Part shown: one piece after another, positions 8,408 through 51,384 of the stretch
Position numbering within the stretch: the first letter of the stretch is position 1
How the letters are laid out: every line of letters starts with the position of its first letter
Assembly (NCBI RefSeq): GCF_018143015.1
Contig: NC_054740.1
Span: 50,774,240 to 50,838,239, forward strand
Direction: 5' to 3'
DNA length: 64,000 nucleotides
Origin: Lytechinus variegatus
Lineage: Eukaryota; Echinodermata; Echinoidea; Temnopleuroida; Toxopneustidae
Notes under the pieces: model-generated
What the model saw: only the letters and a program-made list of their open reading frames with translations
Told to the model about the DNA's origin: nothing
Databases searched by the model: none
Translations under genes and position numbers: made by a program

Positions 8408-8681
8408 AATTTCTGTGTCGATGTGTCATCATTAAAGCATCATCACCATCATCATCCTCTCTATCGCCTTCATCTTCACCATTTCACCGTCATCTTTATC
8501 CTTATCATCTCCATCTTCATTGCTCAAATTACATTACTGCTGTTTTTCATAAAATGTACTGTATATCGATTCTGCTGTGTTAATGTATTATATTAATTAA
8601 TGAGTTTTAACCTGTATCTAATACTATACCTTATTCACTACTATACCTTATTCATTTATTCATAAGTCGAACACATTACTG

Positions 8682-9732
8682 TATGAATTCATTTGGGGTG
8701 GTCCTGATAGAGTAAAACGTGAAGTGTTGGTTAAAGAATACGATGACGGGGGGGTTAAAGATGACTTGCATCAAATCAATTATTCAAGCTCAGAAAATGA
8801 AATGGGTTTCGAGACTTTTCCATTCAACTTCGAAGGGCTGGAAAGATATATGGATAAAATTGTTGTCACCTGTCGGTGGAGAATACATTTTTATTGTGAT
8901 TTTGTTATGAAATATCTGAATATTGAAGTGTCAAATTGGTTGATGGACATTTTACAAACATGGTGTTTATTGGAAAGGAAAATAATTACCAATGAGTTTA
9001 TATCATGTATATGGACAATCAATATATCACATTTAAAGGAAAATCTATCTATAGACCAAACATGAAAGAAAAGGGATTCACTAAAATTACTGATATGTTA
9101 GATGAATTTGGACGCCCACTACGCTGGAGGGAAGCGAAGGGAAAGGGGTTAAAGTTTACTGAGTATTTTGAATTGTTAGATTGCTATAAAATAATGCCAG
9201 GGAAATGGAAAGTTTTCTTTTTACAACAAAACTACCATCATCTTGTAAAAGAACCTGGGGATTTCCCTTCTCATTTTTGTGAATCTGCATTTAGACAAAT
9301 TCAGAATATATCGACAAAGGAATTTTATCGCACTTTTTTAAACATTGATAACTCTGAAACCTCCAAGGTGTTTACTGACTTTAATCAACTTTACAACATC
9401 GATAGGCAACAGACTTCCAAATTGTTCACTCTTCCATTACGAATCACTATTGACACCAGACTCCGAATCACACACTGTAACATTTTAAATACCTTAATAC
9501 CTACAAATGAATGGCTCACAAGAATAGGAAAGAAAACCAACGCATTATGCTCTTTTTGCAATGCGACACCCGAGACATTGGATTATTTGTTCTTTGCATG
9601 TCCTAAAATAGCATCCTTTTGGAATGCGTTGCGTATGAGAGTGACTGACTTTAATCCTAATTATTTCCCTTTCACGAGATACTATTTTATTTGGATTACT
9701 AGAACCACTTACTCCATCCACCTTAGCATTTA
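8682..9732 (+). pseudogene. Tx1-like LINE ORF2, C-terminal part
   Basis: The translation resembles the C-terminal region of Tx1/L1-type ORF2. It starts with FIWGGPDRVKR and LVKEYDDGG, followed in another frame by LKMTCIKSIIQAQKMKWV. It ends with a cysteine cluster of the RT-associated zinc-binding type, WLTRIGKKTNALCSFC then ETLDYLFFACP and FWNAL (about 9510-9640). A G-run near 8747-8753 produces a frameshift, and another frame change lies near 9005. The RT catalytic core is absent, as expected for a 5'-truncated copy. It begins directly after the CR1/L2-like element's 3' tail. Confidence 0.8.
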
Positions 9733-12349: not shown

Positions 12350-15300
12350 CTAGGTACGTATAAAAACAAATAAGATATTTAGAATTAATATTCATATAAA
12401 AATATATTTGATTTGATTTATTCATTTCCACATTCCAATAACAAAAGTATCTACAAATGTTATCATTTTGTCTCAGCATAACATAAGCAAATGACATAAA
12501 GAGTAACATAATACATACATACATTCTAACAATGTACTTGAAGTATATCTGTACCTAATCATTTTTTTTCTAAATTATCACATCAAATATCAGAAAAAAT
12601 ACATATATGAACATAGCACATTTTGGAATGTGGGAGACCTCCATCTTAAGCTTAGAGCTTCAAATTGATAAAGGTCTCGAAAAGAAAGGGGAAGGAAAAC
12701 CCTTATAAAAACAGACAAGTATATATAGTTCCTTATTTTTTAGTACCAAGTAAATGTTCATTTGGTTATGGTGATGAAATAAATAAAGATGATGGTAATT
12801 GAATTATCATGGCTATTTCTGTTAATACTATCATTATTATAATTGTTATTATTATCATTATCATTATTATTATCATTATCATTATTAATTATCATTTTTA
12901 TTATGATCATTATTATTATTATTATTATTATCATTACTTTTATTATTATTATCATCATTATTATTATCATTATTACTAAGTATTATTATTATTATCACCA
13001 TCATCAGAAACCTTGAATAAATCAATAATTCATTTTGATTGAATGCCACAATTTATTAAAACTTTACATCAGTATCGTCGAAAACGATCAAACAATAATT
13101 ACATCAATACATTCACCTGTATAAACATTAATACCCAGTATATTAACATCAACCATCATACAACAACAACAATGATAAAAATATCGATGATATTCAGATT
13201 AAAAAATAAGATAATAATCGTAATAAAGATGAAACATTATAACATTCAGAGGGTCAGATCCAGCTTTCTTCAATGGCTAAAAGCTTTTTTTTGTAAATGG
13301 GGGGGGGGCTGTTAAGGGAAGTCCTTTACAAAAGACGGAAGTTCTAAATTCATCGTAAGTTTATTCGTATTAACAAGATAAAATTTCTCATGGCCTGAAA
13401 TAATGTAAACGTGATTCCAAAGCTGAAAATTTTGGATATTTCATGTAGGCCTATTCAGACCTGAGAATTGAATATTTTTAGCAGTTTGTGTTTTCATTTA
13501 CATGATGGACATATCAATAAATGATGCGAGTGCGAAGCACGTGCTTACTTTTTCTGGCGATATAGACATAAAAAAATTAAGAACGAAACATAGTAAGCAC
13601 TATCATGATATGATGCGTTTCTAACTAAAGTAATTCGTGCGAATGCAAAACGCGGGCTGAAGATATTTTACACACTGACTTTAAAAGAGAATATTTAAAG
13701 GAGCGTTATTATTTCCCTTCCCTTTTTTATTTAATTTTCTTCCTCTTATCTTTTTTTCATATTTTCTCCTCTCCTATATCTTTTTATTTCCTTTTATATT
13801 TTTCAATTTTCCATTTTTTCCGCCCCTCCCCGATCCGTCTATGATTATAAAAATGACGAATGCAACACTTACCGACAACAGCCCCTCCTCCGACCTCCCC
13901 AATACCAATCAGGTAATGAAGGGACAATGCTACAACAGCCAGATCAGGTGGAACTGAAGACTGCGGCAGGCAGGCATTGGTTACTATCAGACCACCAAAT
14001 AAGAAGCCACTTGCAAACGAAAGGAAAGCGAGCGCAGGAAAGGAGTGGGCAACCGTGTTGAGGAAGAAGACCACGGCGGTGACGAAGTGCAGGAGACAGA
14101 AGGTCACCCAGTCTTCCAGGAGTTTCCTCGAGGAGAAGAAACCAAGGGAAAACCGCCCGAGGATGTTCGCTGCTCCCCCGATGGTAGCGAAGAAGACGGC
14201 ATCGCTGGATGGGAAACCTTTTTCCTCGGCGTTGGGGATGACGAAGATGACCCAGGCTGAGTAGCTTGTGCCGGTGATAACGACAGAGGTAACGATGGCT
14301 AGGTAAAGAGGGTGCCTTTGGAATAGCTCGGTGAATGAGGAGTGTTGTTCTATCACGTTGCTCGAAGACGTGTCCATGGTGCCATGGGAGTTGAGGAGAT
14401 GAGAAGTACTCGAGGCATGATCGTCTTCACTCTCGTTAGCGTCTCCTTCGTGGATACTCTGAGATTTAAATACGGATGTAATCGCTCAATGTACAAGTAG
14501 TGCTTAATAACAGAAGGAACAGAAGTCATCCTAATTCGTCAGTATTGGCTCATACACAATGATTTTCAGGCAAAGGCGTCGATCCTGGGGGGCAGGATGG
14601 GGCAAACACTACCGGATATGTAAAAATAAAATAAAATTGGAATTTTACACAGAAATCTACAAGCGAAATTGAAATGCTAATTCGTTCTTTATTTAAAATC
14701 GTGCTCAAAATGTCCGTTTTTTCAGAGTGGAATATAAAAATTTTCAGCTCGCGCTTCGCTCTAACATCACTTCTTTAGCAATAAATCCATACTTTTCATG
14801 GTTAAAAATGTGAATAGATTGTCCCGTTTTCAGGTAAACCTCCAAAGAACTCCCGCTTCGATTTGCAATAATATTTAGTTGGATATACATCTTGTTCCCT
14901 ATTAAAATCGTCCACTGAACTGTTTTTCAGATCGAAATATCAAAATTTTCAGCTCGAACGCTTCGCGCTTGCGTCTATTGTTCTTTCAGTTGCCCATCTT
15001 AATCACTGTTACCAAAAAGGCTTTGAATATTTAACTTTCAGGTCAGAATATTAAGAAATTTCAGCTCGCTCTCGGCACTTGCATTATTTGCGTATAGTAG
15101 TGAGATATGTATCCTCCTCTGAGCTATTCCAAACAGTTCTAAACAGGTACCTTTTTCATTTTTTCGGGTCAGTATACGAACAAATTTAAGCTCGCGCTTC
15201 GCGCTCGCATTATAATTTGTTGGTGAGACATGTGTCTCCTTCTCATGAGTCATATATATATGTACATATATAGGTCTCTGTGTGTGTGTGTTTGGATGAG

Positions 15301-18300
15301 TTGTGTGATCAAGCGCCTTTGGAACGTTGATTCATGATTTTGCCCCCCTCCCACCCCAATTTGAAAAATATAATTAGGTTGCTTTTTCAGTAACATTCGC
15401 AAATAGCACTTAGGATAGTTTTTTTTCTCACTCATCAGGTCATTCTGTGTTACTAATTGGAATCGCAAGTGTTTTAGTGAGTCTCTTATAAGTTATGTGT
15501 TGCACACATATTTTAGTTGATACGGACTGACACTTTAGTAACAGAAATTCGGAATACCAAGCTACTGCAGTAAAGACGATCTCCTCCGTTGACCATGCAG
15601 TTTAAGAAAGCCATTATTATATATCTATTTTCGTAAGATAACAATTATTTGCATGGCCTAAGCTGATGGGTTGAATTATTTCAGTTGGCCACATTTGGAG
15701 TAGTGTGTAAGCAGCGCTTTTTGACTAAAGGGAAAATGTGCTTCATCAAACTGACTTTTGTATTGAATTGGATGGATTTCATCATTCATGCCACGAAGAT
15801 ATGAAATAAGGGATTTCCGTATTCACGGCACTAAAATTATCAGAAATAGTGGATATCCACTGTCGCGCCACTAAGATCATGTCTTTTTATGCCATTAAAG
15901 GGGAAGTTCATCCTGACAAAAAGTTTATTGTAAAAATAGCAAAAAAATAATAAAAAATATTACCGAAGGTTTGAGAAAAATTCATCAAATAATTAAAAAG
16001 TTATTAGAATTTCAGTTATTTGATTTGTGACGTCATATGCGAGCAGCATTCCTACATAGCGAATGGTAATTTTTTTTTTTTTTTTTTTATTTCTGCATTC
16101 AATGAAATGTCAATGAAATGTCATTTTCTCAGAAAATTGAAAATGGTTTTCACTGTAACTTTTGCATATCAATAGACAAATCTTTTCACACCCGATCATG
16201 AAAAGAAAATAAAATTAAATCATCAGGAACCATACAAAATTTGAATTTCATACATTTTATATTACATAACACATGGGGCAGCTGCTCGTTTATGACGTCA
16301 CAAATCCAGAATTTTAAACTCTAATAACTTTCTTACTCTTTAACGGATTTTCCTCAAACCTTCACCAATAATTTTTACTGTTTTTCTGCTATTTTTACAA
16401 CAAAGTTTTCTTCAGGGTGAACTTCCCCTTTAACGATTAAGTAGCGATTGGACGTTCTCGATTATGCAATCTTGGCTAAATTTCATGCTCCATCGGATTT
16501 GACACTTTTATGTCAAAATGATTTTAGCAAGTGGGTTTATATGGCTCCAATATTTCCAAATTTCCTAATTCATTTGAACATAAATGATATAAGATCAAAA
16601 TAATATTCAGCAAACTCACAGGTAAATCGGTCACGACTTCATCAATATTTGACGGCGTTGATTGATAGGTCTTTGGTCGGAAGAGGGCGCAACATGGTAT
16701 ACAGTGAAGACTGATTCCACCCAATAGAAGCATTGCACCACGCCAGGAGTAGATCCGTCTCAGTTCTTCGGCCAGGACTGGCAGTGTCATCATTCCGACG
16801 CCCCCAGCGGTGAAAGTCACAGCAGTCACAATTTTGTAAATTGGGGAGAAGTAGTCGAGGAGACTGGCATGCGTAGGGAACATGACCAAGCCATAGCCTA
16901 TACCTAAAAGTTGATGGTATCGGTACAAAGCCAGGTGAGATTAAACTTAAAGAAGATTAAAATGTAAGAAGATCAATGATCAATTGATAACTGTACAAAT
17001 TGATTATGTGAGCATTTTCGGATTTCAGAGTTTTCAAAGTTTCTGGGAATTCGATAATGGCCAAGGTGTTCCAAGGATATTTATGGATTCCACGAAGAGC
17101 TAGAATGACAAACACATACATAAAATATTGTTTATTTTCTTGACCAAACAGAGCAATGCCAAGGTCCTGTAATTTCCATTGTTCACTATTAAAAACTCCC
17201 CTCCCACCCATGGGAGCATTTTCTTGATCCGCGCCTGCCTCAAGTTGCCCCCCCCCCCCCCCATACACACAAACAAGTAGGCCTATATCAGATTGGTTAA
17301 TTTAGATTACAACACAACGAGGGGTTACCCACCTACCTGATAAAATGAGACAGAGTAGAAATTGGATTCCCGTTCTAGAGAAAGATCCTAGAATAATTCC
17401 AACGGAACCCATGACGCTACCAGGAATGATAACCGTCCTCATGTACATTCGCTTCATTAACCATGGGCAAATTATGGCTACAACAAGGAAATAAACAACA
17501 ATAATACTCTGAGTGAGTTTTTTTTAATTATCAAATAATTATTCAATTATCTCTTCATCAGCTCTTTTGTATTTTTATATCATGACATCTCTGAAATTTG
17601 AAATATTTCATATTTCACTTATAAATATCAGCCAAATGAATATTGACTATGTGACGTCATCGGCTCTGTCATTTTGCATAAACACCTGTGTCGCTCTGTA
17701 ACAATCTTCTGAAAAATTAAAGCGAAAGTTTGAAGATGTCACAACCCTCAAAATTCACAATGAGATTTAGATAATTATATACACATTCACAAATTCCAGT
17801 TTCTGCTTATTCAAATCAACTAGCTGTTTGAGCGGAGTTGACTTTTCATAAAATCGGAGGTGATATCGCTCACAGGTCTATACCAAGAATAAATCCAAAT
17901 CCAAATGCTACGGCAGTGTGCATTTTTCTTTGAAGCATAAAAAACTAAAACACACTACATTGGACACAGACAAAGAAATGTTTGAGGTTGAAATTCAATG
18001 GACATTTCTGCTGCTAAAATAGAATAAGGTGGCTACGGGTAGTGCAATCATATTTATTTATTCTTCTATAAAAATCTGTTTCAATGACAGATACCGTTTG
18101 CAATCTCCTGTTGATGGATCTTTTTTTATCTTCAAATCCCTTTGGGTCCATATGGCTGTTGCATCTGTCTACTTTTCACGATGCCAGGATACTACATCGA
18201 AAAATGATGATCGATCATAATTTTGATTTTTTTTCACAGGTGTTTTTCGCATACGCTTGTAAGAACTAAGTTCTTTAAAGCGTATGCTTAAGAAGCATAC

Positions 18301-31616: not shown

Positions 31617-31911
31617 CTTTTAGACCAAAAGGAAGCGCAATTATTAGCAAAAGATGGAAAGTTCCATAAATACACACAAAACCACATCAGATTGTTGTTA
31701 TTTTGTGAGTAATATGACACACCACAAGTGCCAGGTATAAATGGTAATATCTCTGACTTTTTTCCCCTTCTGCAATTTTTACCCCTGCAATTTTTACTCC
31801 CGCCATTTTGTATTCTGCACTATTTACCTCTGCCATTTTTACGCCGAACCACACCAGAGGCCAGGAGGACAATCACTTTCTTCAACTGCAAAGATACAAG
31901 AAAATAAGATG

Positions 31912-32424: not shown

Positions 32425-32735
32425 TGTCTCAAAACTAATGTTACAATTTACAACTTTTTCTCACCAGATCATGAATAAAAAAAATGCCATCAAATGGGCC
32501 AATAAACATAATATGATCATTTTAAGAATTAGAAAGATGAGCTTTTAAAGCATAACTTTAAAGCATAACTTTAAATGTATTAAATGGGGAGATTCTTCTA
32601 AAGAAATGGAGCTGCATAAGAGAAAGAACGCTGACCGTGAGGGTGTATCACAGCAAACGCCAAAGGCATACAAATTTCTGAACTATGAGAATAAAATTTG
32701 TTTTATTGGACCATCTTTAAGATTGAATATATATA

Positions 32736-35700
32736 GTAGACCGGCCAAAACGATTTTTTATACTTTGGACGGCAAAATTTGTTAATGCTTGCTAATGATT
32801 GGCATCCCAGCTAAAAGTTTCGCAAAAATACCCAGGAATAGCGTACGGGCGGATGCCAAGCGCAATTTTGCGTGAAAGTGTCATTTTTAGCGTAAAATCT
32901 GAAAGACTGTCGAAAATCACGCATTTTGATATTTTGACGGATTATCATCATATTTTTGATTATCTTTGATATGAAATTATTTTTATTCAGAATTTCAAAT
33001 TATAAGTCTACTAAATATGCATTTCAAATTTGAATATTACACACACACATATGGCACAGGGAAACATAAAACCGCGATTTCCTCGAAATAAAAGTTTGAG
33101 TAAACTATCAATAGTTTGAAGTTTTTTTAAGCAACATAAATTCTTCGATTTAAATGCGTTTATCCATCGAAAGCATAGTAAACGTCCTAGTGCCACAAAT
33201 ATTAAAAGAATTTTCAAGTAAGATGGTAGATATCTCATTTTATGTTATCCGAAAGGAGACAATGTACATTTTACCAGGTGCGCATTTTGAAAGAAAAATT
33301 GAAAATACCGTACATTATGTACCGTACATAATTACATACTAAAGTACATACTAAAGCGAGTTTTTATTTACATGTATAAGTCCATAATAAAGCGAGTTTT
33401 TAATTGCATAGCACAATTTGTCAATTCCTTGCATCCCAGCTAAAAGTCTTGCGGAAATACTGAGGAATAGCGTACGGGCGGATGCCAAGTGCACTTTTGC
33501 GTGAAAGTATAATTTTTAGCGTAAAATCTGAAAGACTGTCGAAAATCACGCATTTCGATATTTTGACGGATTATCATCATATTTTTGATTATATTTGATA
33601 TGGAATTGTTTTTATTCAGAGTTTCAAATTATAAGTCTACTAAATATGCATTTCAAATTTGAATATTACACACACATATATGGCAATATGAAATATAAAA
33701 TCGTGATTTACTCAAAATAAAGGTTTGTAAAAATTATTAATGGTATAATGTTTGTGTTCCGCATCTCAATTTCGTCAAGATTTAGTGCTAACCGAATAAA
33801 TACTTAATAATTGTTGTCATGTCACATATAGTGAAAACAAATACTGAAATAAGATGCAAGATATATATCATTTTATGTTATATATGCGAAATATAACAAT
33901 GCACATTATTTTATCAGATGCGCATTTCTGATAAAAAAATAAACAGCGCACAATATTACATCGATATTGCACATATCTTATATCAGTGCGATACTCGGCA
34001 TGATATTATATAGGATTATGTTTGCTTTTGTAGTATAGAGTTCGATCTTCTTGCTATTTCCACGAATGAATTGGTGCTGAACTTAAATCTACCTATGTGG
34101 CGATATTCAGAAATAGGTCTGATATTTAATTTGCCGTTACCATGGTAGCATTAATTTTACAGGAATATCTATATCCAAAATCATAGAAAACATACATGTA
34201 TGAATAATGTATGTATGTATGTATGAATGTACGGCAAATTAAATATCAGACCCATTTCTGGATATCGCCACAGGCAGGGTGACCAGACGTCCCGTATTTT
34301 CCGGGATTGTCCCGTATTTTGCTCCTGTGTCCCGGCGTCCCGACAAACCCTTCCCGGGACGCCTATTTGTCCCGTATTTCAGAATATTAAACAAAATGTA
34401 GTTAATACATTTAAAAGTGACGAACTTTCATTAAATAACCAACAGCTGACGAAGCAGGAACAACAATTAAATCGATATTTACTGTAAACTTTTGCAAGTT
34501 CTGCGGTGATTTCTTGCTAACCCAATGCATTGCAAACGAACTGGTCTCCTGCCTGTGTGTGGCAGGCTACTAGCTAGACATGTAGGATCGAAGCAAATTC
34601 TCAATGGTGAAACAGTCTCACATGATAAACAGTTTTTCCACCAAAATAATCACAAAATCGGCGGGAAATTCTTATAATTATGCTATGGATTCTAAGATTA
34701 ATGATTTGGAGATGTAATCGGAGGAACAAGTTATTGAGTTTTTATAGATCTAGTTGTTTCAGCTTTCGTTTTGAGTCTTGGTGTGCACGCGATGCCGCGA
34801 TGTAGTTTTAAGTTTAACAATATTGTTTCACTTTGAAATTTTATTCATTTCTAAAACATTTTATTTTTTTAAATTTTAAAAATACATTTAAAAACACCAA
34901 ATGAAATTATGATTTTTATTACATGATTGGATTTTTTTGTTTACTTGAAGTTTGAACTTTTCCCTTTTTCTTTCTTTTATATACCCTATCCTTTCTGCTT
35001 GCCCTTTTTTGTTCCATCTATCTTTATTTCCAATACCATACTTTATCCGTATTATTTATTTTGTAATTATCTGTGTTATTGTTTGAATATTTTTTGTGTC
35101 TTTATTAATTATGAATACATCGCACTTCGGCCTTAGCCGCGATGATGTCTTGATTTTTATTAATAAACCATTTATCTATATATTAGTTTCCTATCTTTCT
35201 TTCCTAGACATTTTCTTTTCTCTCTCTGTTCATTTTTCTTTCTTTCCTTCTTTCTCTTACTTTCCTTCTTTATCAAATATCCTTTTTTATTTCCTTCATT
35301 CCTTCTTTCCATATAATTTATTAGGAGCGCCTTGAGCACCTAACAAGGTGGAAATGTGCGCATTATAAATATCCTATATTATAATTACCTTGGCTTCCTT
35401 CTCTCTTCGTCTCCTGTTTCTTTTCGTTCTTTCTCTCCTTCCATTATTTCTCTCTTTTTTTCGTTCTCTCCTCCCTTCATTCTCCCCTTCCACTCTTTCT
35501 TCCTTTCTTTATTTTTTCCCTTCTTATTCTTTTCCCTTATTCTTTCTTTCTTTCTTTTGTTTCTATCTTTAACTTCCTTCCATTTTCTTTTTTCTTTCTT
35601 TCAAAGAATGAAGGCCATGTTTATTTCCTTCATTATATCTTTCCTCCTTTTTCTAACCCTTTTCCCCCTCTAATTCTCTCCTTTATTTTGTCTTTCAGAC

Positions 35701-37372
35701 ATTTACTCATCTCCCCTTCCTTTCTTTTCTTTCTTTCTTTCTTTTTTTCTATATATCATTTCAAAGAATGCCGGAAACCTTCTTTTATCTCTTATTTCTT
35801 TCATCCTTCTTTTATTCTAACTTTCTGTTATTTTGTATGTTTTCCTTTATTTTCTTTCCTTCTCAATCATCTCTTCTTTCTCTCCTTCATTCTTTCGTTC
35901 ACTTTCCCTTCCAATTCTTTATATTTTTTCACAAGTCTAACACTTTGTGTGGGCTTCTTTGTTGATCTTCGTTTGTCAATTGTCCCGTATTTCATTTTTC
36001 GAAATCTGGTCACCCTGGCCACAGGTAGATTTAAGTTCAGCACCAATTCATTCGTGGCAATAGCAAGAAGATCGAACTCTACAAAAGCAAACATAATCCT
36101 ATATAATATCATGCCGAGTATCGCACTGATATAAGATAATGTGCAATATCGATGTAATATTGTGCGCTGTTTATTTTTTTATCAGAAATGCGCATCTGAT
36201 AAAATAGTGTGCATTGTTATATTTCGCATATATAACATAAAATGATATATATCTTGCATCTTATTTCAGTATTTGTTTTCACTATATGTGACATGACAAC
36301 AATTATTAAGTATTTATTCGGTTAGCACTAAATCTTGACGAAATTGAGATGCGGAACACAAACATTATACCATTAATAATTTTTACAAACCTTTATTTTG
36401 AGTAAATCACGATTTTATATTTCATATTGCCATATATGTGTGTGTAATATTCAAATTTGAAATGCATATTTAGTAGACTTATAATTTGAAACTCTGAATA
36501 AAAACAATTCCATATCAAAGATAATCAAAAATATGATGATAATCCGTCAAAATATCGAAATGCGTGATTTTCGACAGTCTTTCAGATTTTACGCTAAAAA
36601 TTATACTTTCACGCAAAAGTGCACTTGGCATCCGCCCGTACGCTATTCCTCAGTATTTCCGCAAGACTTTTAGCTGGGATGCAAGGAATTGACAAATTGT
36701 GCTATGCAATTAAAAACTCGCTTTATTATGGACTTATACATGTAAATAAAAACTCGCTTTAGTATGTACTTTAGTATGTAATTATGTACATAATGTACGG
36801 TATTTTCAATTTTTCTTTCAAAATGCGCACCTGGTAAAATGTACATTGTCTCCTTTCGGATAACATAAAATGAGATATCTACCATCTTACTTGAAAATTC
36901 TTTTAATATTTGTGGCACTAGGACATTTACTATACATTCGATGGATAAACACATATAAATCGAAGAATTTATGTTGCGTAAAAAAACTTCAAACTATTGA
37001 TAGTTTTCTCAAACTTTTATTTCGAGGAAATCGCGGTTTTATGTTTCCCTGTGCCATATGTGTGTGTGTAATATTCAAATTTGAAATGCATATTTAGTAG
37101 ACTTATAATTTGAAATTCTGAATAAAAATAATTTCATATCAAAGATAATAAAAAATATGATGATAATCCGTCAAAATATAAAAATGCGTGATTTTCGACA
37201 GTCTTTCGGATTTTACGCTTAAAATGACACTTTCACGCAAAATTGCGCTTGGCATCTGCCCGTACGCTATTCCTGGGTATTTTTGCAAGACTATTAGCTG
37301 GAATGCCAAGCATTAACAAATTTTGCCGTCGAATCCTTATCTAGAGCACTTTTTGAGGTTTGGCCGGTCTAC
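32736..37372. mobile_element. Giant foldback (inverted-repeat) element, ~1.4 kb arms
   Basis: The left arm starts GTAGACCGGCCAAAAC (32736) and the right arm ends TTTGGCCGGTCTAC (37372). The left arm 32736-34133 matches the reverse complement of 36026-37372 plus 34232-34274. The centre is about 100 bp (34134-34231, including a TATG repeat). Each arm holds two ~630 bp subrepeats beginning GCATCCCAGCTAAAAG (32807, 33432). Identity between arms is high with a few indels. The right arm is split by the hAT-like insertion at 34275-36017. Flanks are (TA)n, so the target duplication cannot be read. ORFs at 33154 and 36670 are the two mirror copies of one repeat frame and show no domain. No transposase. 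Confidence 0.88.
34267..36025. mobile_element. hAT-like non-autonomous element inserted in the foldback
   Basis: The element (34275-36017, 1743 bp) starts CAGGGTGACCAGACGTCCCG and ends ATCTGGTCACCCTG, with CCCGTATTT words inverted near both ends. The 8-base duplication GCCACAGG flanks it exactly (34267-34274, 36018-36025). Most of the interior (35210-35920) is pyrimidine-rich tract giving Phe/Ser/Leu frames; no transposase is visible. Confidence 0.92.
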
Positions 37373-37449
37373 TATATATATTTATCTCGCGGTTTGGACT
37401 TTTTAATGTGCTTCAAATTAATATAACAGGAAATACACTGTGTCCCTCA

Positions 37450-37838: not shown

Positions 37839-37883
37839 CAAATGCTACTTCCTCAGCCACATCTTTAGCAGGATATACGAAAT
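37839..37883 (-). CDS. Tentative exon 5 of the mini-exon gene
   Basis: An acceptor with a T-rich tract ends GTGTAG at 37884; the GTAAAT donor starts at 37838. The 45 bp exon is phase 1 in and out, open in the required frame only, acidic, and ends AEEVAFG. Phase and composition fit the upstream exons, but 45 bases is too short for certainty. Confidence 0.35.
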
Positions 37884-40800
37884 CTACACGTCGAACAAAA
37901 ATCAAACATACTGAATAAAACCGAAGTATATAAGCCTATGACACAATTGATTCCTGTAAGAGAAACTGAATACGAATATGCCTCCTCATGTTATTGAGTT
38001 CCATCCTATAATCGTCCATTATAACTTCTGAACTGCACGATTACCAGCCATATTTCCACCTTCCCGATTGTTTTTTTTTGCCACCCACACCCAGTCGTTT
38101 AGACGATTGTTCAGAATAGAAAATGATATACATTTCAGATTTGAAAACAATACCCTATCAATTTGGTTGATTGATGAATAGTTTAAGCACTTATTCGACT
38201 TTCTTTTACATTTTAGGGAAACAATTGCGACTTCGGGAGAGAAACCCATGTTTTTCAGATCTTTATAGAATGAAATGTTGAATAATGAAACGACACGAAA
38301 TGTACAATATCTCCCAGGTTCATTCTCTATGTTTCCATTTCCTCCTCTTCTCTCTCTCTCATCTATTTTTTTTTTCCTTTCCTCATTCCTTCTCCTTTTT
38401 GACCCCTTACCCCTTTTCGTACTCCCTCCTCCTCTTTGTATTTTTTTCTTTCTTCTTCTTCTGCTTCTCTTCATATTCATCATGTTTTTCTTCTTCATTT
38501 TCTTCCTTTTTATTTCCTTCCTCTTATTCCTCATTACTTTTCCCCCAATTCTTTCTCCTTCCCATCCGAATTATCTATGAACTATCCTGATTTATTCTGA
38601 ATGATCTGGTTTGACCATTATTAGGAATTGCGGTTCAGGTTGTTTACCCCATACCCTCTTTCATGTGAGTATTTTGTCAGCTTTGAATTGATATTCTTGT
38701 TTTCATTCCCTGCTTATTCTTCATATTCCGTTTTCCTTCTTATACTGATTATTTCCTGTTTGTTTTTTGGTATTAATGTACAGTGTATATTGTTACAAAT
38801 TTCTCACTGGTTTTTAAATATTTATTTGATATGTAATTGTGAATTTAATTGTACTTCTTTGCATTGTCAATAATCCAACTGCCATGGTTGCAATGAATGA
38901 ATAAATAAATAAATAAATAAACGGAAAAGACTCAAATTAAAAAAAAAAATTATGAATTTCAATCCACTTTTAAATAGCAGAATTAAAATGAAGTAAAATA
39001 GTAGACACAAATCGGTATGTATTAGCACTAAAACAATATAATACTCACCAGACTCTTCAAGATTCACGTTCCCGTCCTCGCGCACTTCTCCTACGTTGAT
39101 GAAAAAATAACATTAGTATAAGAATAATATGCATATAATATACATTTTCAGATATGAAAACAATACCCTATCAATTCGGTTGATTGGTGAATTTTACATT
39201 TAGGAAAACAATTGCGACTTCGGGGAGAAACCCTTGTTTTTCAGATCTTTAAATAATGAAATATTGCATAATAATATGACACGAAATGAACGGAAAAGAC
39301 TCAAAGTCTATTCAAAACTTTGAATTTCAATCCACTTTTAAATAGCGGAATTAAAATGAAGTAAAATAGTAGGCACAAATCGGTATCTATTAGCACTAAA
39401 ACAATATAATACTCACCAGACTCTGGCAGTCCAGACTCTTCAAGATTCACGTTCCCGTCCTCGCGCACTTCTCCTACGTTGATGAAAAAATAACATTAGT
39501 ATAAGAATAATATGGTGTCTAAACACTCATACGCCTAGCAATCTTCATAATGGTAAGAATATACCTACTACCGAGAGCATAAGCGGTATAGTAAAGAGTC
39601 CTACTTTTTTAGAACAATCTAATATCCGTTAATTACTCCTGATCGAGTGGTATAAATTCGTATAAGGCGTCAAACTGCAGAGTCGTAATGACACGGGTCG
39701 AAAATTCCGCATACATTCGTAATTCCGACGCTTCGTTATTCCGAAGATCCGAATATTCCGAAGTTTCGTAATTTAGATTCGTTAGTCCGAAAACGAAATA
39801 AGGTTCAGTTGGACTGGCAATAACTGTTTTCATCGGGGCTTCGCCCTTCTGAGAAAATAGTGATTGCCAGTCAAACCTCGGATAAATAATTCCGAATATA
39901 CTTTCTCAAAGCCTGATATATTTGTATAATATACATTTTCAGATATGAAAACAATACCCTATCAATTCGGTTGATTGGTGAATTTTACATTTAGGAAAAC
40001 AATTGCGACTTCGGGAGAAACCCTTGTTTTTCAGATCTTTAAATAATGAAATATTGTGCATAATAATATGACACGAAATGAACGGAAAAGACTCAAAGTC
40101 TATTCAAAACTTTGAATTTCAATCCACTTTTAAATAGCGGAATTAAAATGAAGTAAAATAGAAGGCACAAATCGGTATCTATTAGCACTAAAACAATATA
40201 ATACTCACCAGACTCTGGCAGTCCAGACTCTTCAAGATTCACGTTCCCGTCCTCGCGCACTTCTCCTACGTTGATGAAAAAATAACATTAGTATAAGAAT
40301 AATATGGTGTCTAAACACTCATACGCCTAGCAATCTTCGTAATGGTAAGAATATACCTACTACCGAGAGCATAAGCGGTATAGTAAAGAGTCCTACTTTT
40401 TTAGAACAATCTAATATCCGTTAATTACTCCTGATCGAGTGGTATAAATTCGTATAAGGCGTCAAACTGCAGAGTCGTAATGACACGGGTCGAAAATTCC
40501 GCATACATTCGTAATTCCGACGCTTCGTTATTCCGAAGATCCGAACATTCCGAAGTTTCGTAATTTAGATTCGTTAGTCCGAAAACGAAATAAGGTTCAG
40601 TTGGACTGGCAATAACTGTTTTCATCGGGGCTTCGCCCTTCTGAGAAAATAGTGATTGCCAGTCAAACCTCGGATAAATAATTCCGAATATACTTTCTCA
40701 AAGCCTGATATATTTGTGTAATATACATTTTCAGATATGAAAACAATACCCTATCAATTCGGTTGATTGGTGAATTTTACATTTAGGAAAACAATTGCGA

Positions 40801-42012
40801 CTTCGGGGAGAAACCCTTGTTTTTCAGATCTTTAAAGAATGAAATATTGAATAATAATATGACACGAAATGAACGGAAAAGACTCAAAGTCTATTCAAAA
40901 CTATGAATTTCAATCCACTTTTAAAAAGCAGAATTGAAATGACTAAAAATAGTAAACTCCATTTTACTTAGAAATCTAGATTTGGTTTTAGATAACAATG
41001 TTAAATATTAATAGATAATAAGTATAATCAAAATGTGACTTTTAAGCTCAAATTCCTCTCCGAAGAGTGCCCGAGGCGCATTAATTGAATTAAAAGATTT
41101 GAGGAGATATTTAACACTCAAAAGAGACGCATTGGTTAAAGGAGAATGAAACCATTGGAACAAGATAGCTTGTGTGAAAACAGAAAAATCTAAGAAACAG
41201 ATCAATGAAAGTTTGAGAAAAATCGGACAAATAATGAGAAAGTTATGAGCATTTGAATATTGCAATCACTAATGCTATGGATATAGCAAATTTGCAATGC
41301 GACAAAGATGTGTGATGTCACTTGTGAACAACTCTCCCCATTACTTTAGTATATATTTCACTTGAATTGCCTCTTTTATCACATTTATGTGTTCTTTCTA
41401 AATGAGGGCATGCTGTAATACATATTTTTTAAGAATACATCATGGATAAAGAGTTTGTATCATCATAAGCAAAAGCAAAAAGAGACATTTTGAGGGTATT
41501 TTATAGTCCACCAAAGGGAAAGTTGTTCATCAGTGACATCACACATCCTTAATTGCATTGCCAATAGGAGGATCTCCATAGCATTAGTGATTGCAATGTT
41601 CAAATGCTCATAACTTTCTCATTATTTGTCCGATTTTTCTCAAACTTTCTTTATTCTTATTCTTTGATTTTTCTGTTTCTACACAAGCCTATTTGTTCCA
41701 AAGGTTTCATTCCCCTTTAATGTCTTCAGGAAGGTTATTCCACAATGTGGGGATATATGCAAATGCTCATAACTTTCTTATTATCTGGTACTTACTTTCC
41801 CAAACTTTCATTGATTTGTCTCTTTTATTTTTTGGTCTTAAATCAAGCTAACTTGTTACCAGGGTTTAATTTTCCTTTACCGTAAGGAAACGTTTTATTT
41901 AAAAAAAATAAAATGTTATTGTGATTATATACTTACCATGAGATGAAGAAGCTTGGTAAACAATGAAAATGAGTACCATGAAGAGAGGAATGGCGAATCG
42001 TGTGGACTTCAT
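37839..42012 (-). CDS. Secreted protein with tandem acidic mini-exons (partial, 3' end not found)
   Basis: Exons in transcript order: 42012-41937 (signal peptide), 40265-40209 (57 bp), 39473-39417 (57 bp), 39090-39049 (42 bp), and tentatively 37883-37839 (45 bp). All junctions are phase 1 with GT donors and AG acceptors, so any subset of the mini-exons keeps the frame. The signal peptide begins MKSTRFAIPLFMVL and ends near QASSSHG. The repeated exon encodes EVREDGNVNLEESGLPES (shorter copy: EVREDGNVNLEES), strongly acidic. The tentative fifth exon encodes FVYPAKDVAEEVAFG. A short secreted precursor with acidic spacer repeats is suggested. The mature domain, stop codon and function are unknown, and no family was recognised. 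The exons sit on near-identical ~792 bp repeat units, so copy number may vary. Confidence 0.62.
38119..38302. repeat. Part of the first mini-exon repeat unit
   Basis: Matches the start of the 792 bp unit: ACATTTCAGATTTGAAAACA ATACCCTATCAATTTGG, then GAAACCCATGTTTTTCAGAT and GACACGAAATG. The unit continues at 38925 after a retroposon insertion. More diverged than the other copies. Confidence 0.85.
38303..38924 (+). mobile_element. Retroposon insertion with (AATA)n tail splitting the repeat unit
   Basis: It interrupts the unit between GACACGAAATG and CGGAAAAGACTC, which are adjacent in the other copies apart from a few bases. The 3' end GGTTGCAATGAATGAATAAA with AATAAATAAA tail (38889-38921) is typical of CR1/L2-like retroposons. 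The 5' part is pyrimidine-rich. ORFs through it on both strands (38019-38590) are not credible genes. Confidence 0.7.
39049..39090 (-). CDS. Mini-exon copy, 42 bp form
   Basis: The acceptor TTTTTTCATCAACGTAG precedes 39090; the GTGAGTATT donor starts at 39048. It encodes EVREDGNVNLEES with split glycine codons at both ends. It lacks the 15 bp that adds GLPES in the other two copies. Splice signals are intact. Confidence 0.7.
39417..39473 (-). CDS. Mini-exon copy, 57 bp form (second)
   Basis: Identical in sequence and splice signals to the copy at 40209-40265. Encodes EVREDGNVNLEESGLPES in phase 1. The acceptor tract TTATTTTTTCATCAACGTAG is strong for such a small exon. Confidence 0.72.
40209..40265 (-). 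CDS. Mini-exon copy, 57 bp form (first after the signal exon)
   Basis: The GTGAGTATT donor begins at 40208 and the acceptor ends at 40266. The 19-codon phase 1-1 cassette joins the signal exon as CAT G|GA, giving SSSHG-EVRED. Lies 792 bp from its duplicate. Confidence 0.72.
41136..41720. mobile_element. TTAA-flanked MITE in intron 1 of the mini-exon gene
   Basis: The element (41140-41716) starts AGGAGAATGAAACCATTGGA and ends TTCCAAAGGTTTCATTCCCCT. TTAA at 41136-41139 and 41717-41720. Long TIRs include TTTGAGAAAAATCGGACAAA and TAATGAGAAAGTTATGAGCA, mirrored near 41600-41650. ORFs on it are artefacts. Confidence 0.92.
41750..41880. mobile_element. One-ended relative of the 41140 MITE
   Basis: TATGCAAATGCTCATAACTT, TCTTATTATCTGG, TTTCCCAAACTTTCATTGAT and CCAGGGTTTAATTTTCCTTTA resemble the right end of the adjacent MITE. 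The left end is absent. Confidence 0.6.
41937..42012 (-). CDS. Signal-peptide exon of the mini-exon gene
   Basis: ATG at 42012, 25 codons plus one base, GTAAGT donor at 41936. Basic start (MKSTR), hydrophobic core (FAIPLFMVLIFIVYQA) and small polar end (SSSHG) form a good secretory signal. Phase 1 donor fits the mini-exons exactly. Exonic extent upstream (5'UTR) is unknown. Confidence 0.78.
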
Positions 42013-42689
42013 CTTATTTCAAGACTTGAACAAAAGTTGCAGGATCGTACAGGGTCAGAAAAACTTGTTGAAAGCGAATACCGTTGTCGTCTCTGTCGTT
42101 TTTGACGTCCGAATATGTAGCTCTAGACAATCTTCTATTTGTAGTTTCAGCGATTTTGTTATGCTATTATTCGTGCAGTTATTTTAAATCACAAAATTTG
42201 ATTCATCGTGGTGGAACGAAACAATACCTGCATGATAATGACGTGATTTCACTTTCTTTCCTTTCTCATATCATGAGAAAATTTGTTTTTCTTTAATTTG
42301 CCGCTTCACTGACAAGATTGAAAGTCATTTGATGATTGATAGTGTTTTTGAATAAAAATTATGAATGCCTTCACCCTTTAAAAATATTTCAAATATATTT
42401 AAGAAAACCGAACAATTTGAGTGATCTCACTGCTCCAAACCAGTTCAACCGCATACCGTATGGTTCCACGTGGCACTTAAAGACTCAGCTGCTAAGGGAC
42501 GCACCATTAGATATATCAGAGAGATTTTTTCCCCCTTAATCCATTGAGACAAGTTTTGTTCACCTTTCAGATGATTTGTAAGTGGACCAATATAGCAAGT
42601 CAACTTTTTTAAAAAAGAAAAACTTCCACCCCCTCCCCCTGGATATCTAATGGTGAATCCCTAAGAGACTATAGACATAAAGTTGTGAC

Positions 42690-45459: not shown

Positions 45460-48400
45460 GTAAGTTTTGTTTATCACCATCAAATTTATTTTAGAAAACC
45501 CAATCGTAATTTATTCTTCGTTCACATGATTACTTTTAATGCGTCAACATTAATTTGTGTGTTATTATTTTGACGATGGTTATTATTGATATCATTGTCT
45601 TTGATATCTTTGTACTATACAATTGATGCGAGCGCGAAGTGCGAGCGGAAACCAAATTGAGACTTCAGGAGCCCGTTGCAGAGTTGCAATCGATCGCAAC
45701 TCTAAAATCAAGCGCAACTTGATTTTCAACCAATCAACAGCGTGCATTTGGGACTTGCGTTTGATTTTTTGACTTGCGTTTAAACGCAACTCTTTCTGCA
45801 ACAGGCCCCTGGCCTAAAAACGGGACACTCTATTCATGTTTTGTAAATCAGGAAAGGGATGGGTAATTGGGTAGCTTCTTACGTTAATAATGTGAGCACA
45901 AAGCGCAGCACACATTTTTTTATATTCTAATCGGAAACTATAATTTAAACACGTATATAAAAAAGAAATGCCTATCTGAATAAACATGCGTGGCTGGGCG
46001 TGTTTAGATTAAAACTAGAATAGTACATTCTAAATTGTTTTATCATGAAAACCAATAATGCGAGCCCGACCTGAAAATATATCGTATTCCGATCTGGTAA
46101 AGGGGTGATTCGAAGCACTATTTCAAGCACTGTGTACATGGTATAGAAAAATCCTGAATGGGGGAGGGTCCTCCAAAATATCTTTCATTTTCATTACATT
46201 TCTGTCATTCATCACACTTGTCAGATTTCCAGGGGATGCTTGCGTATGGAAAATAACACAGCTCAAGGCGCTCCTATATTACCCGGCTAAGCTAGGCGTT
46301 CATAGCGCACACAGCTTTTTAAAGAAATTACTTCCTACCGGTACCCATTTACCTCACCCGGGTTGAGTGCAGCACATTGTGGATCAGTTTCTTGCTGAAG
46401 GAAATTACGCCATGGCTGGGATTCGAACCCACGACCCTCTGTTTCAAAGTCCGAAGACTAATCCACTGGGACACAACGCTCCAATCATGATAGCACTCGT
46501 CATTATAATAACAATAGTGATATTGATATTGATTACGACTACAAGATCTTTGCTCCTGCAATATTGCTCCTGGCTATATCTCTTCTAAGATGTAGGGGCA
46601 GGGATTTATGTCAGGTTTCAGTTTAGCTTTAGGGTTGAGTGTACATGTAGTGTTAAATCCGGGATTGAAGTTAATACTTCGATTATTGTGTGGAATTTAT
46701 AGCGGAGCTTATAACCTTTATAAAGTGTGGTAGGTGTGCGATCTCCCATTATTTTTCAAATAGCGAATCGTATGATTTCAATTATAATTGAATATTACGA
46801 TTCGCTATTTGAAAATCATATGGGAGGTCGCTTACGATTCGATATTTGAAAAACCATATGGGAGGTCGCAACCCGCTACCCCTTCACACACAACCCCTGA
46901 CTATCAACCCTTGTTCTTCCCAACTATCTTTCTCATCAACATCACACTATCTCTACGTTTCCTTGGTCATCAACAATTGTACATATCACCTCTTGTTTTT
47001 TTGTCATTTATTCTCAATCTACATGTATATTCATTTATAGATTTGTCCGCATGTAGCCGCGTTTGTTTATGAGTCTTCGTAATACGTTTACTTGTAATTT
47101 TTACTAACAATGCAGAATTCTGAATAATGAAAGTAATTATGTATAATGTAGTAGTTTTCAAAAAACTTATCAAACTAACTACATTATATTACGTGCATGA
47201 TTAACAGCAATAAACGAGACAGTCTCTGCTACCATGGCTAATAGCATTTGTTCAGATTTAGACTGCATTCATGGCATTGGGTAAGGAATTGTTATCTTAT
47301 AAAGTCAAATAATTTTAATTGATTTCATGATATACAGATGAAGTACGTTTCCATGGATCTAAGTCAAATAAGACAAAGCATGGAATGCTTCAGATTCGGA
47401 AATCCTCATCCGACGGATCGTCCCCTTGGCAGTATCTTGAGCCCGAGAGTATCGGCCTCACCGGGGCACGACTGGTTTGTCGTCAGCTTGGCTTCCCTTA
47501 TGTCTGTGGTATGGGTAGCGAGTTAATGATGAACATCACGTCAGAAGATATTTTCTGGTTTGATACAAGTTGTACCGGTGATGAGGTCTCTCTTCAAGAT
47601 TGCACCATGAATTTGCGGCAACAATCTCTCCTGCAAAGGGTCCCAAAGACGATGGATGTCCTCACAGTGACGTGTGCCTCTGGTGAGTTGATCTTGTAAG
47701 ATTATTTCTATGGTTAGGTTTGATTTCATTGCCGCAGCCGTAGTGATTTCATAACACAATTTGCATAACCTTAGACCTGAAAGAGTCCCATAAAATCCTC
47801 TCAAACAAAAAAGGGTAATAAGATGTATTGATATTAGAGGCCCATGGTTTTCACTCTTTCAATATAACGTGAACTATGTCGATCAAAGACGTTCCTCTCC
47901 TTAACCCTTAATTGAAGAAAAGTGGCTACCAGCTATTCTATTTTGAGATCTATCATTTGTCCAGCCCTTATAGGATTAGTCAACATATTTCATCATGCTT
48001 GCAATATGTGCCATTTTAAGTGGTGAAATCGTTTAATCATAATCTTTTCCATTTCACCATCGAACGTGCAGAGGACGATATCGAAGTGCGCTTATCGAAC
48101 AGTTCATCCATTGGAAAGGGTACTGTTGAGTACCGTTGTATGGGTGATTGGATGAACATTTGCTTCGATGCGTGGTATCCATCTACGGCTAACACACTCT
48201 GCAAGCAACTTGGGTATGGAGGAGTGGTCGAGGATGTTCAGGTTGCCATGCCAACTGCATCACTCTCGAGTCGAAGTTTTTATTGCTCCATCACGACGCA
48301 TAAGGACCATATATTCGATTGCCTGATGGCAGAAGAAAGTTGCGTTTCGAGAAAGGCAGCATCCGTAACCTGTGGGATAGGTATATTAGATATGTGTTTT

Positions 48401-51384
48401 TAATTGACCATTGTCTTATTGAAAAAGTAAATAAACCTGGCAATGTGAAAAGTTATACACACGGATGGTACCAATAATGCCTGATAGGTATTTTCATTTA
48501 TTGAATGCATTATTAAGGAGCAATATAGATGCAATTTTTTGTTCAAGAATATGTCGGTGCGTCCCAAGCCGGGGATCGAATCTTTGACTTAAAGTGCCTC
48601 TTGTTCGGATGGTCCTAGCCGCTGTGGCATCTTAATGATAATGGTAATGACAGATCAGAGTAACACAGATTGTAAGAAAGTAGTATATGATTTAAAAGGA
48701 AATTCCAGGGTAAACATTTCCCTTTGCATTATCATTAAGATTGAATTTAATGCTATCAGCTTGCCACTACTGATTATCATACTAAGAAGCGAAATATAGA
48801 TGATAAAGCTCATTACGATAATTGGTGCTTGTTTTATCTTTTTTCAGATATCACAGTTGAGAAGAGAGGTGTCACCCTATGCGATTCTACAATGACGTGC
48901 AGAGGGAACTGTGGTAATGCAACAATGACCGGTTGTCGCTGCGACAGTGCATGTTATCTTTACAATGATTGCTGTTATGACTTTACTGAAGAGTGTGGTC
49001 TGCAAGGCGAGCAAATGCTACATCATACCCAAGGCAACATCCTAGATATGTCATTATATTCTTGTGAGAAGCCGCTCGGAGGAATGAGCAATATCTATCA
49101 ACAAGCTGAATGGTTTTATTTCATAAGGAAATGCCCATCCATGACAGAAGAAATGCTTAGAGATCGTTGCGAAGGTCCAAGTTCGGTGGATGATGTTCTT
49201 CGTAACTTGCCAGTTTACGACCATGAAGGAGACGTTTTCTACAACGTCTTCTGTGCAGCATGTAATGGAAGGAATTTAAAAGATCTGACTGCCTGGAGGG
49301 TTGAGGCGGAACCTGAAGAGAATTTCTACACTAACGAAAAGCAAATTTATTATGTAGTACTACCGCCGTGGGAAGAACGAGGCAAAACAAGACTATGCTA
49401 CGCTGAAGGGATGGTCACGGATTATTGTCCTTCCTTCACCGGATCACAGCTTGAAAGTGCATGTCAGAACTACCAGGCTCCAGTTGTACATTCTGGTGGT
49501 GCTGTATATCGCAATCCGCATTGTGCCAAGTGTCATAGCAAACGTATAAGTGAGATTCCCATTGAGTCCTGCACTGGATGCCAGTGTCAGACTCCGTATT
49601 GTTTCTTGAAATGTCCGGACGGTCGAACAGGAAGACTAGCATCAGTCACTCTCCTATTTGACTTTTTCACTTCGGATGATGTCCAGTGCACGGGAATTGG
49701 AGAGATATATGACATGTTCCTCGAGCGGTGCCGAGTGCTTGTCTGTCCACCTGGCACGATATTCGTAGCAGATTCTTGCGTATCGATGGAGTCTGGGTCA
49801 GATGATCCTACCTTACAATCAACAATGAGTTGTCTGATTTCTGCCATTGCGTCAAGTTTAACTGAAATAGCCGAAATAATTCTTGATCGCAATGTAACTT
49901 CAAATGAGAGCTCAGCTTTCCTCTTTGCTGAAAATGTTAATGACGCCCAATCTGTCGCTTTGACCCTAGGAGCAATTGTAGACTATTCAAATGAAGTTCA
50001 TCAGATGATATGTAATCTCAGTGACGTCATGCTCATCGCACCGCCTCCTTTTAATGATACTGTACCAGATGTTTGCAGTCAGTACTCTGTTGCACCTGCA
50101 ATAACAGAAAATGCCTTTAGAGCAAACAATGGTGACTTATGGCATCTAAATAGAACATTCTTGATGTTCAACGAATATCATTTCATTGGTAACTCTTCGG
50201 TTTACGTTAGCAGTCAGCCTTCAGGAAAGTGTTGGTTTGCACTCTTAAATACTCTTATATGTGAGTTACAAGTTGTACCCGAAGGGAAATTTGCAATTGA
50301 TGGAAACCTAGCTGTCCATATTCCAACAGGTACAGAACTGACATTTGACGAATATTTCCGTTTGCTTAATGGAAGTTACGTCGTATGTTCGGAGAATCTC
50401 AACGGATCTACTGATGTACAAACCATAATGTATCTAATCGGGGCAAGTATGTCTATTTTATGTCTCCTTGCGACACTGGTCACTTATACTGTCCTGCCGA
50501 AGCTCAGGAATGTGGCTGGTAAATGCCTGATGAATGTCGCTTTGGCACTACTTGGAGCAAACCTGATCTTCGTGTTGAACCCTTTGATGAGTTACAACAC
50601 GATCCTCTGCTCAATCATGGCTGCATTTGCGCATTTCTTCTGGCTAGGTTGCTTCAGCTGGATGAATGTCGCCGGCTTCAACATGGCTCGTACATTCGGA
50701 TGGAATGCCTCGGGAACATCCATCCAATCTACCAGAAGTTGCTCCAAAGGGACATTGGTGTCCTACATCCTCTACGGCTGGGGCGTACCTTTCGTGATTG
50801 TTGTCATCGGAATCTGCTTCCATTTGTGCCAGTGCACGGGACTGAGGTTTCAGTATGGTGGACCACTTATCTGTTGGATTGAAGGGGAGCGTAGAGCCAT
50901 GATGTACGCGGTCGGTATACCTATCTACAGTTCTATTTTACTTAATGTTTTACTGCTCTGCTTCACAGCTGTTTCTCTAATTAGGCATCGGAGAGAAGGC
51001 AGGTCATTAAGAGCGAATCAGACGTTTATCTTTAAAGAGAACCTGACCATTGTTGCCAAGGTATGTATTTTTCAATGCTTCTGTAATTAAACCAGTCAAG
51101 AAAAATACTTTTTTTTCATACAACAATAACACCCAAAAGACGTGTGTGTAACAAAACAATCTTGTTCAGCCGCTCAGGCTAACGTCACTCCTCCTCCATC
51201 TATCATGTCCATCTGTCTATATATCGTTATATTCATCACTCTTTCACTACATTCTTCGTGGTTTAGTCCCTTCTTTCTCCAAATCTCTCCCTCCTCACGT
51301 TTTTTGTCGGGTGACGTTTTTCACTGGTTCTTTTTTTTTAACTACATGTATATCTCATTCATTTTTACTTCTTTCTCCCCTATC

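Follow-up and report, generated by a model that had tools for sequence, protein, structure and literature searches.

The window analysed here is the whole stretch of 64,000 nucleotides from the sea urchin Lytechinus variegatus (NC_054740.1, positions 50,774,240 to 50,838,239), and it carries on its minus strand a predicted six-exon gene, in which four short acidic exons (cassettes A, in three copies, and B) stand between a signal-peptide exon and a terminal exon that codes for a peptide with two cysteines. The original prediction had described a secreted-protein gene with a signal exon and three tandem mini-exons of 57, 57 and 42 bp in phase 1-1, and this part holds: the coordinates, AG/GT sites and tandem unit are as proposed, and the five exons it named have AG acceptors and GT donors, all on the minus strand. 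It erred in placing the end of the gene at 37839, as the terminal exon lies at 31885-31839 and closes the frame, and it also missed seven paralogs and two further loci on chromosome 9 (C9). The completed frame comprises 107 residues, is intact over the six exons and has the C-terminal end ...ESDCPPGLWCGSA. The features of the locus are as follows.

42013..42300, minus strand: 5' flank conserved with the paralogs, which probably holds the promoter and 5' UTR
41937..42012, minus strand: signal-peptide exon, 76 bp, ending in phase 1; MKSTRFAIPLFMVLIFIVYQASSSH plus the first base of the next codon
38123..40954, minus strand: interrupted tandem array of a 791-792 bp intron-plus-exon unit
40209..40265, minus strand: first copy of cassette A, a phase 1-1 exon of 57 bp; (G)EVREDGNVNLEESGLPES
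39417..39473, minus strand: second copy of cassette A, 57 bp, with the same sequence as the first
39049..39090, minus strand: cassette A copy 3, 42 bp, 15 bp shorter
37839..37883, minus strand: cassette B, a phase 1-1 exon of 45 bp, (G)ATTTC..., that translates to DFVYPAKDVAEEVAF; its donor, GTAAAT, is weak
32734..37375, no strand: insertion of ~4.6 kb in the last intron, non-coding for this gene, probable foldback DNA transposon
31839..31885, minus strand: terminal exon, 47 bp including the stop; VEESDCPPGLWCGSA and stop codon

The GTGAGT donor claimed for each mini-exon is present on all three cassette-A exons, which also share an acceptor pyrimidine value of 0.72; the "good acceptor" claimed for them applies to this tract but not to every position, as the simple splice-site score of 2.3 is modest. 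The acceptor of the terminal exon at 31885 is strong (pyrimidine 0.78), and the cassette-B donor following 37839 reads GTAAAT in the window versus GTAAGA or GTAAGT in the paralogs. A scan of 26-42 kb with simple splice scores, which were too strict, did not list the correct exons and gave three unrelated candidates, one internal and two terminal. Together the cassettes make up 201 of the 324 coding bases, and the acidic part of the predicted protein has a pI of 4.05 and a charge of -19 over 70 residues. The signal peptide of this gene and of its relatives was assessed by eye.

The array comprises two nearly full units, one shortened unit and one diverged, exon-less and interrupted end. The first two units agree at 98% of 746 aligned positions, and unit 3 measures 368 bp, about 400 bp of intron being gone; the 15 bp missing from cassette A copy 3 sit between two GAGTCTG words. 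Since the downstream flank of this copy shares ~90% identity with the flanks of the other two, it appears to be an older duplicate, and the close likeness of the first two units, the shortening of the third and the divergence of the fourth point to duplications of two ages. The last exon is distant from the rest of the gene because of the ~4.6-kb insertion, which is absent from the paralogs on another chromosome, C5 (their alignments end at 32733 and restart at 37376), bears long inverted arms (651 nt, 100%; 534 nt, 97%), and probably represents a foldback transposon of recent date. A short repeat rich in palindromes (TTCGGA...TAACGAA type) lies in the cassette-A introns (window 39.7-40.6 kb) and also at 54.4, 57.3-57.6, 58.8-59.1 and 61.5 kb; this intron sequence is present in the paralogs as well.

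The window gene (42.6-30.2 kb) aligns to a tandem cluster of seven paralogs, g1-g7, spanning ~95 kb of C5 (7435248 to 7529785; g1-g6 on the plus strand, g7 on the minus strand), which share with it all the exon types (a signal exon, both acidic cassettes and a Cys-loop terminus). DNA searches of the 869.6-Mb genome, each of which overlooks divergent copies that another finds, gave 10 matches for the signal exon (window, seven on C5, two on C9), seven for the terminal exon (window, six on C5) and nine for cassette A with its flanks (three in the window, six on C5 at 7.436-7.500 Mb), very common words being skipped in the last search, which missed the copies in g7 and on C9. All nine cassette-A matches belong to the family, and we therefore rule out a dispersed transposon bearing the exons, the outcome by which the original prediction was to be refuted. 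Scripted joining of exons gave an uninterrupted frame with a single final stop in seven of eight models (107 residues in the window; 69 in g1 and g2, 66 in g4 and g5, 68 in g6, 70 in g7); in g3 the signal-exon donor GTATTT was not accepted by the script, and the exon lengths would keep the frame. The C5 models have four exons and the window gene has six. Across the eight models there are 10 cassettes A (33, 42 or 57 bp) and eight cassettes B (45 or 48 bp), and every one of the 18 lengths is a multiple of 3; the introns beside them show indels of 1, 4 and 10 bases. Thus, the proposal of frame-neutral mini-exons coding for an acidic repeat stands, and the recurrence of the exon types in seven paralogs, combined with lengths always divisible by 3, argues that the mini-exons are more than chance.

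Identity to the seven paralogs is 93-100% in the signal exon versus 79-95% in the following 100 intron bases, and for the two C9 copies the corresponding values are 84-86% versus 41-42%. The 5' flank is 81-97% identical to the seven paralogs at -1 to -100 and 79-92% at -101 to -300. At the other end of the gene, the tail reads CPPGLWC followed by GSA in the window, g4 and g5, CPPGLWC followed by RSA in g1-g3, CPPDLWC followed by F in g6, and CNQVGLWC followed by T in g7. The two cysteines are thus five residues apart in seven of the eight models and six apart in g7, and among the seven five-residue loops the change of G to D in g6 is the sole difference between the cysteines. The terminal protein of the window gene equals that of g4 and g5 despite three differing codons and is one residue off that of g1-g3. 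A degenerate DNA pattern for C-P-P-[GDE]-[LF]-W-C occurred at seven places in the genome, all of them terminal exons of this family, and its reversed control had no matches. Comparison of the window gene with g1 gave five silent and one replacement changes in the signal and terminal exons versus one silent and 12 replacement changes in the cassettes (Fisher p 0.003), and the same contrast was found against g3, g4 and g5 (p 0.013, 0.022 and 0.017); the comparison with g6 covers part of the sequence only. With modest statistical weight, these counts suggest that the signal and terminal exons are constrained and that the cassettes undergo loose or diversifying change. We also scanned the aligned signal-to-terminal span of g1-g5 for conserved phase 1-1 exons, starting from the 94 AG and 131 GT positions that are conserved there and using donor and pyrimidine filters chosen after the exons had been seen. 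The scan returned cassettes A and B along with a fragment of 24 bp that lies within B, and by these criteria the three introns contain no further conserved exons.

The original prediction recognised no known family, and none was matched in the searches made here. Run against Pfam (E up to 10), the 107-residue model had five matches, none of which reached its curated cut-off (best: SET7_N, E 0.0028, 17.9 versus 27 bits), and searches of PDB sequences (E up to 10) gave only three C5a-peptidase chains (best E 0.64); these matches look like chance resemblance of acidic sequence. A genome protein search with the 36-residue repeat returned nothing although the exons are present, which marks that search as insensitive. 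Searches of open-licence literature gave no description of the family or of its peptide strings, which is weak evidence of novelty, and PMC6209648 contained no passage on disulphide or cysteine.

Two loci on C9 (here C9a and C9b) extend the family. In C9a the signal ATG lies at 15169678, and profile analysis gives 12 A-like and 12 B-like cassettes within 15180.0-15209.2 kb, where eight units match the whole of the 1,621-base query unit, either in a single piece or in two, at 90-100% identity. The pyrimidine tract is lost before cassette A (0.28-0.33 in 11 of 11 copies, the twelfth being without an acceptor region) and kept before cassette B (0.61-0.83 in all 12), and for this reason B is likely the functional amplified cassette there; judged by these signals, the functional amplified cassette is probably B at C9a and A in the window. 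One B unit used as a query gave 20 matches, all on C9, of which 13 are at C9a and seven lie within 16927983-16945554, downstream of the C9b signal exon (16972309) and on the same strand; these seven may belong to C9b. A tree of cassette A with its flanks groups the window copies (support 0.97) and sets all C9 copies apart (1.00), which indicates that the amplifications were separate events. The variation in copy number proposed by the original prediction is therefore upheld across genes, with one, three or about a dozen cassettes per locus. No terminal exon was found at the C9 loci in the stretches read, which exclude the sequence downstream of 15210000 and 16928-16955 kb, and C9b has only a broken terminal-exon fragment. 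A long minisatellite occupies C9 16954.6-16968.7 kb, below the signal exon of C9b in a gap the size of an intron, and its unit resembles the sequence found right after the stop codon of the family.

On the basis of this gene structure, the window locus probably encodes a precursor that carries a cyclic peptide at its C-terminus and an acidic spacer capable of expansion, and would belong to a small prepropeptide family. The signal exon would direct the precursor to secretion, the acidic cassettes may serve as a spacer or propeptide, and the two-cysteine tail would close a one-disulphide ring, presumably the conserved active part. The spacer would be free to change in length since the cassettes all share one phase; their number may change by unequal exchange, which is favoured by the near-identical introns, and possibly by exon skipping. 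Among the designs considered in the original prediction, acidic spacers around a bioactive peptide provide the best fit, with the overlooked terminal exon coding for the conserved Cys-loop peptide. Several observations weigh against the cyclic-peptide precursor. The window cassette B has the weak donor GTAAAT, none of the seven models that were translated has a dibasic site within 30 residues ahead of the tail, and g6 and g7 have the cassettes in the order B then A. The Cys-loop tail appears not to be universal, given the lack of a terminal exon found on C9 and the broken fragment in C9b. In g2 the upstream 100 bases are 97% alike versus 93% for the exon, hence the contrast between exon and flank is not uniform. 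The contrast between silent and replacement changes is absent for the window versus g2 (p 0.16) and for the within-cluster pairs g1-g4, g2-g5, g6-g4 and g6-g7 (all p = 1), and the five window comparisons, which have one sequence in common, are not independent.

According to another, rather unlikely explanation, the acidic cassettes are themselves the product, i.e. the gene encodes a secreted acidic protein built from repeats (of matrix, mucus, adhesive or calcium-binding type), whose length is set by the number of cassettes and whose Cys-loop is a small tail that serves anchoring or dimerisation. Such a protein would agree with the amplification of A to three copies in the window and of B to about a dozen at C9a, with the second array at C9b, with the terminal Cys-loop not being found in the C9 stretches read, and with a tail not preceded by a dibasic site. 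It accounts poorly, however, for a CPP[G/D]LWC loop that is kept in seven of eight terminal exons while the cassettes change in protein sequence, and for the fact that one A plus one B suffices in five of the eight genes, two such A exons having shrunk to 11 codons (g3-g5). We consider it improbable that the gene encodes the precursor of an immune effector or antimicrobial peptide, as in the centrocins and strongylocins of sea urchins. The parts of PMC10608444 that deal with these families report anionic propeptides of 15-30 residues that neutralise cationic mature peptides, and by description the present family is similar in having a signal and an anionic prodomain, along with predicted secretion, a tandem cluster and fast-changing cassettes. 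On the other hand, its tail is neutral or acidic rather than cationic (no basic residue in the window, g4 and g5, one Arg in g1-g3), it has only two cysteines and a cassette-exon structure, and in such a precursor diversification should affect the signal and terminal exons rather than the tail. A decaying pseudogene cluster, with the window copy as a relic swollen by tandem repeats, is very improbable: the weak cassette-B donor in the window, the altered signal-exon donor of g3, the broken C9b terminal fragment and the 4.6-kb insertion in the last intron would fit decay, but the window frame is intact over six exons, all cassette lengths are multiples of 3, and the terminal protein equals that of g4 and g5 although three codons differ.

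The predicted cyclic peptide and its gene can be compared with several known systems. The contryphans of cone snails (O2 conopeptides) are described in PMC4278219 as C-terminal one-disulphide peptides with a five-residue loop, Pro first and Trp last, and according to PMC10501145 their signal is encoded by a separate exon with a phase-1 intron after it. The sea-urchin tail resembles them in the placement of Pro and Trp and in the five-residue spacing, in seven of eight models, of the two cysteines that would form the disulphide, and the gene likewise has a phase-1 intron after the signal exon. Contryphan precursors have a dibasic or basic release site before the mature peptide, whereas the sea-urchin precursor has no dibasic site; it also differs in the GSA, RSA, F or T after the last Cys, in a loop interior that is otherwise unlike (and has six residues in g7), and in its acidic cassette exons. 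Thus, the resemblance is likely chance or convergent. The sea-urchin 185/333 (Trf) genes are likewise a tandem secreted family with repeat-based variation in length; in them the signal exon is followed by a single large exon, whereas here the variation resides in separate mini-exons.

By description only, the nearest systems in design are the schistosome MEGs (micro-exon genes). In the portion of PMC10526429 concerned with them, they are secreted, have a conserved signal peptide, have undergone gene duplication, and comprise 10-20 exons, mostly of 15 bp. The internal exons of MEGs are very short, usually divisible by three and set apart by long introns, and their alternative splicing has been shown. 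The sea-urchin family also has the signal on the first exon, short exons whose lengths are multiples of three, and duplicated genes. It differs in exon number (4-6 per gene), in cassette length (33-57 bp), in the conserved Cys-loop at the terminus and in phylum, though the C9 loci contain many more candidate cassettes than the 4-6-exon models. A study cited in PMC10526429 reportedly deals with 81-base exons of S. mansoni that are repeated in tandem. We tentatively raise the possibility, less probable than the cyclic-peptide precursor as such, that echinoids have a micro-exon-type system of secreted peptides, evolved independently of that of schistosomes, in which constant signal and cyclic-peptide exons flank frame-neutral acidic cassettes. 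In such a system the number of cassettes, changed by recombination between near-identical introns and perhaps by splicing, would give a tunable precursor length, and loci would amplify different cassettes.

Other features were noted in the window and in the genome. Positions 47331-51087 (plus strand) contain SRCR domains, a somatomedin B domain and a secretin-type seven-helix region and probably belong to an adhesion-type receptor gene; two exons at 13787-16940 (minus strand) match the major facilitator superfamily and mark a transporter gene; and matches to reverse transcriptase and zf-RVT at 6386-9730 (plus strand) indicate remains of a LINE-type retrotransposon. On C13, two bindin (PF02084) loci at 18.60 and 24.95 Mb gave two exon matches each (E 4e-66), and PF02084 had no match in 14 control genomes. 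Bindin is a marker of echinoids and their close kin, and its presence, taken together with the SRCR and somatomedin B exons of the receptor gene, agrees with an echinoid source.

If the window gene and its relatives are expressed, they would constitute a secreted cyclic-peptide family that the searches made here did not turn up and in which exon amplification is seen at one, three and about a dozen copies. With cassettes in the same phase and copies as little as 2% apart, change of exon number by recombination would be observable within and between individuals, and the family would make it possible to ask what the length of an acidic spacer does. A micro-exon design of secreted genes would then reach beyond flatworms.

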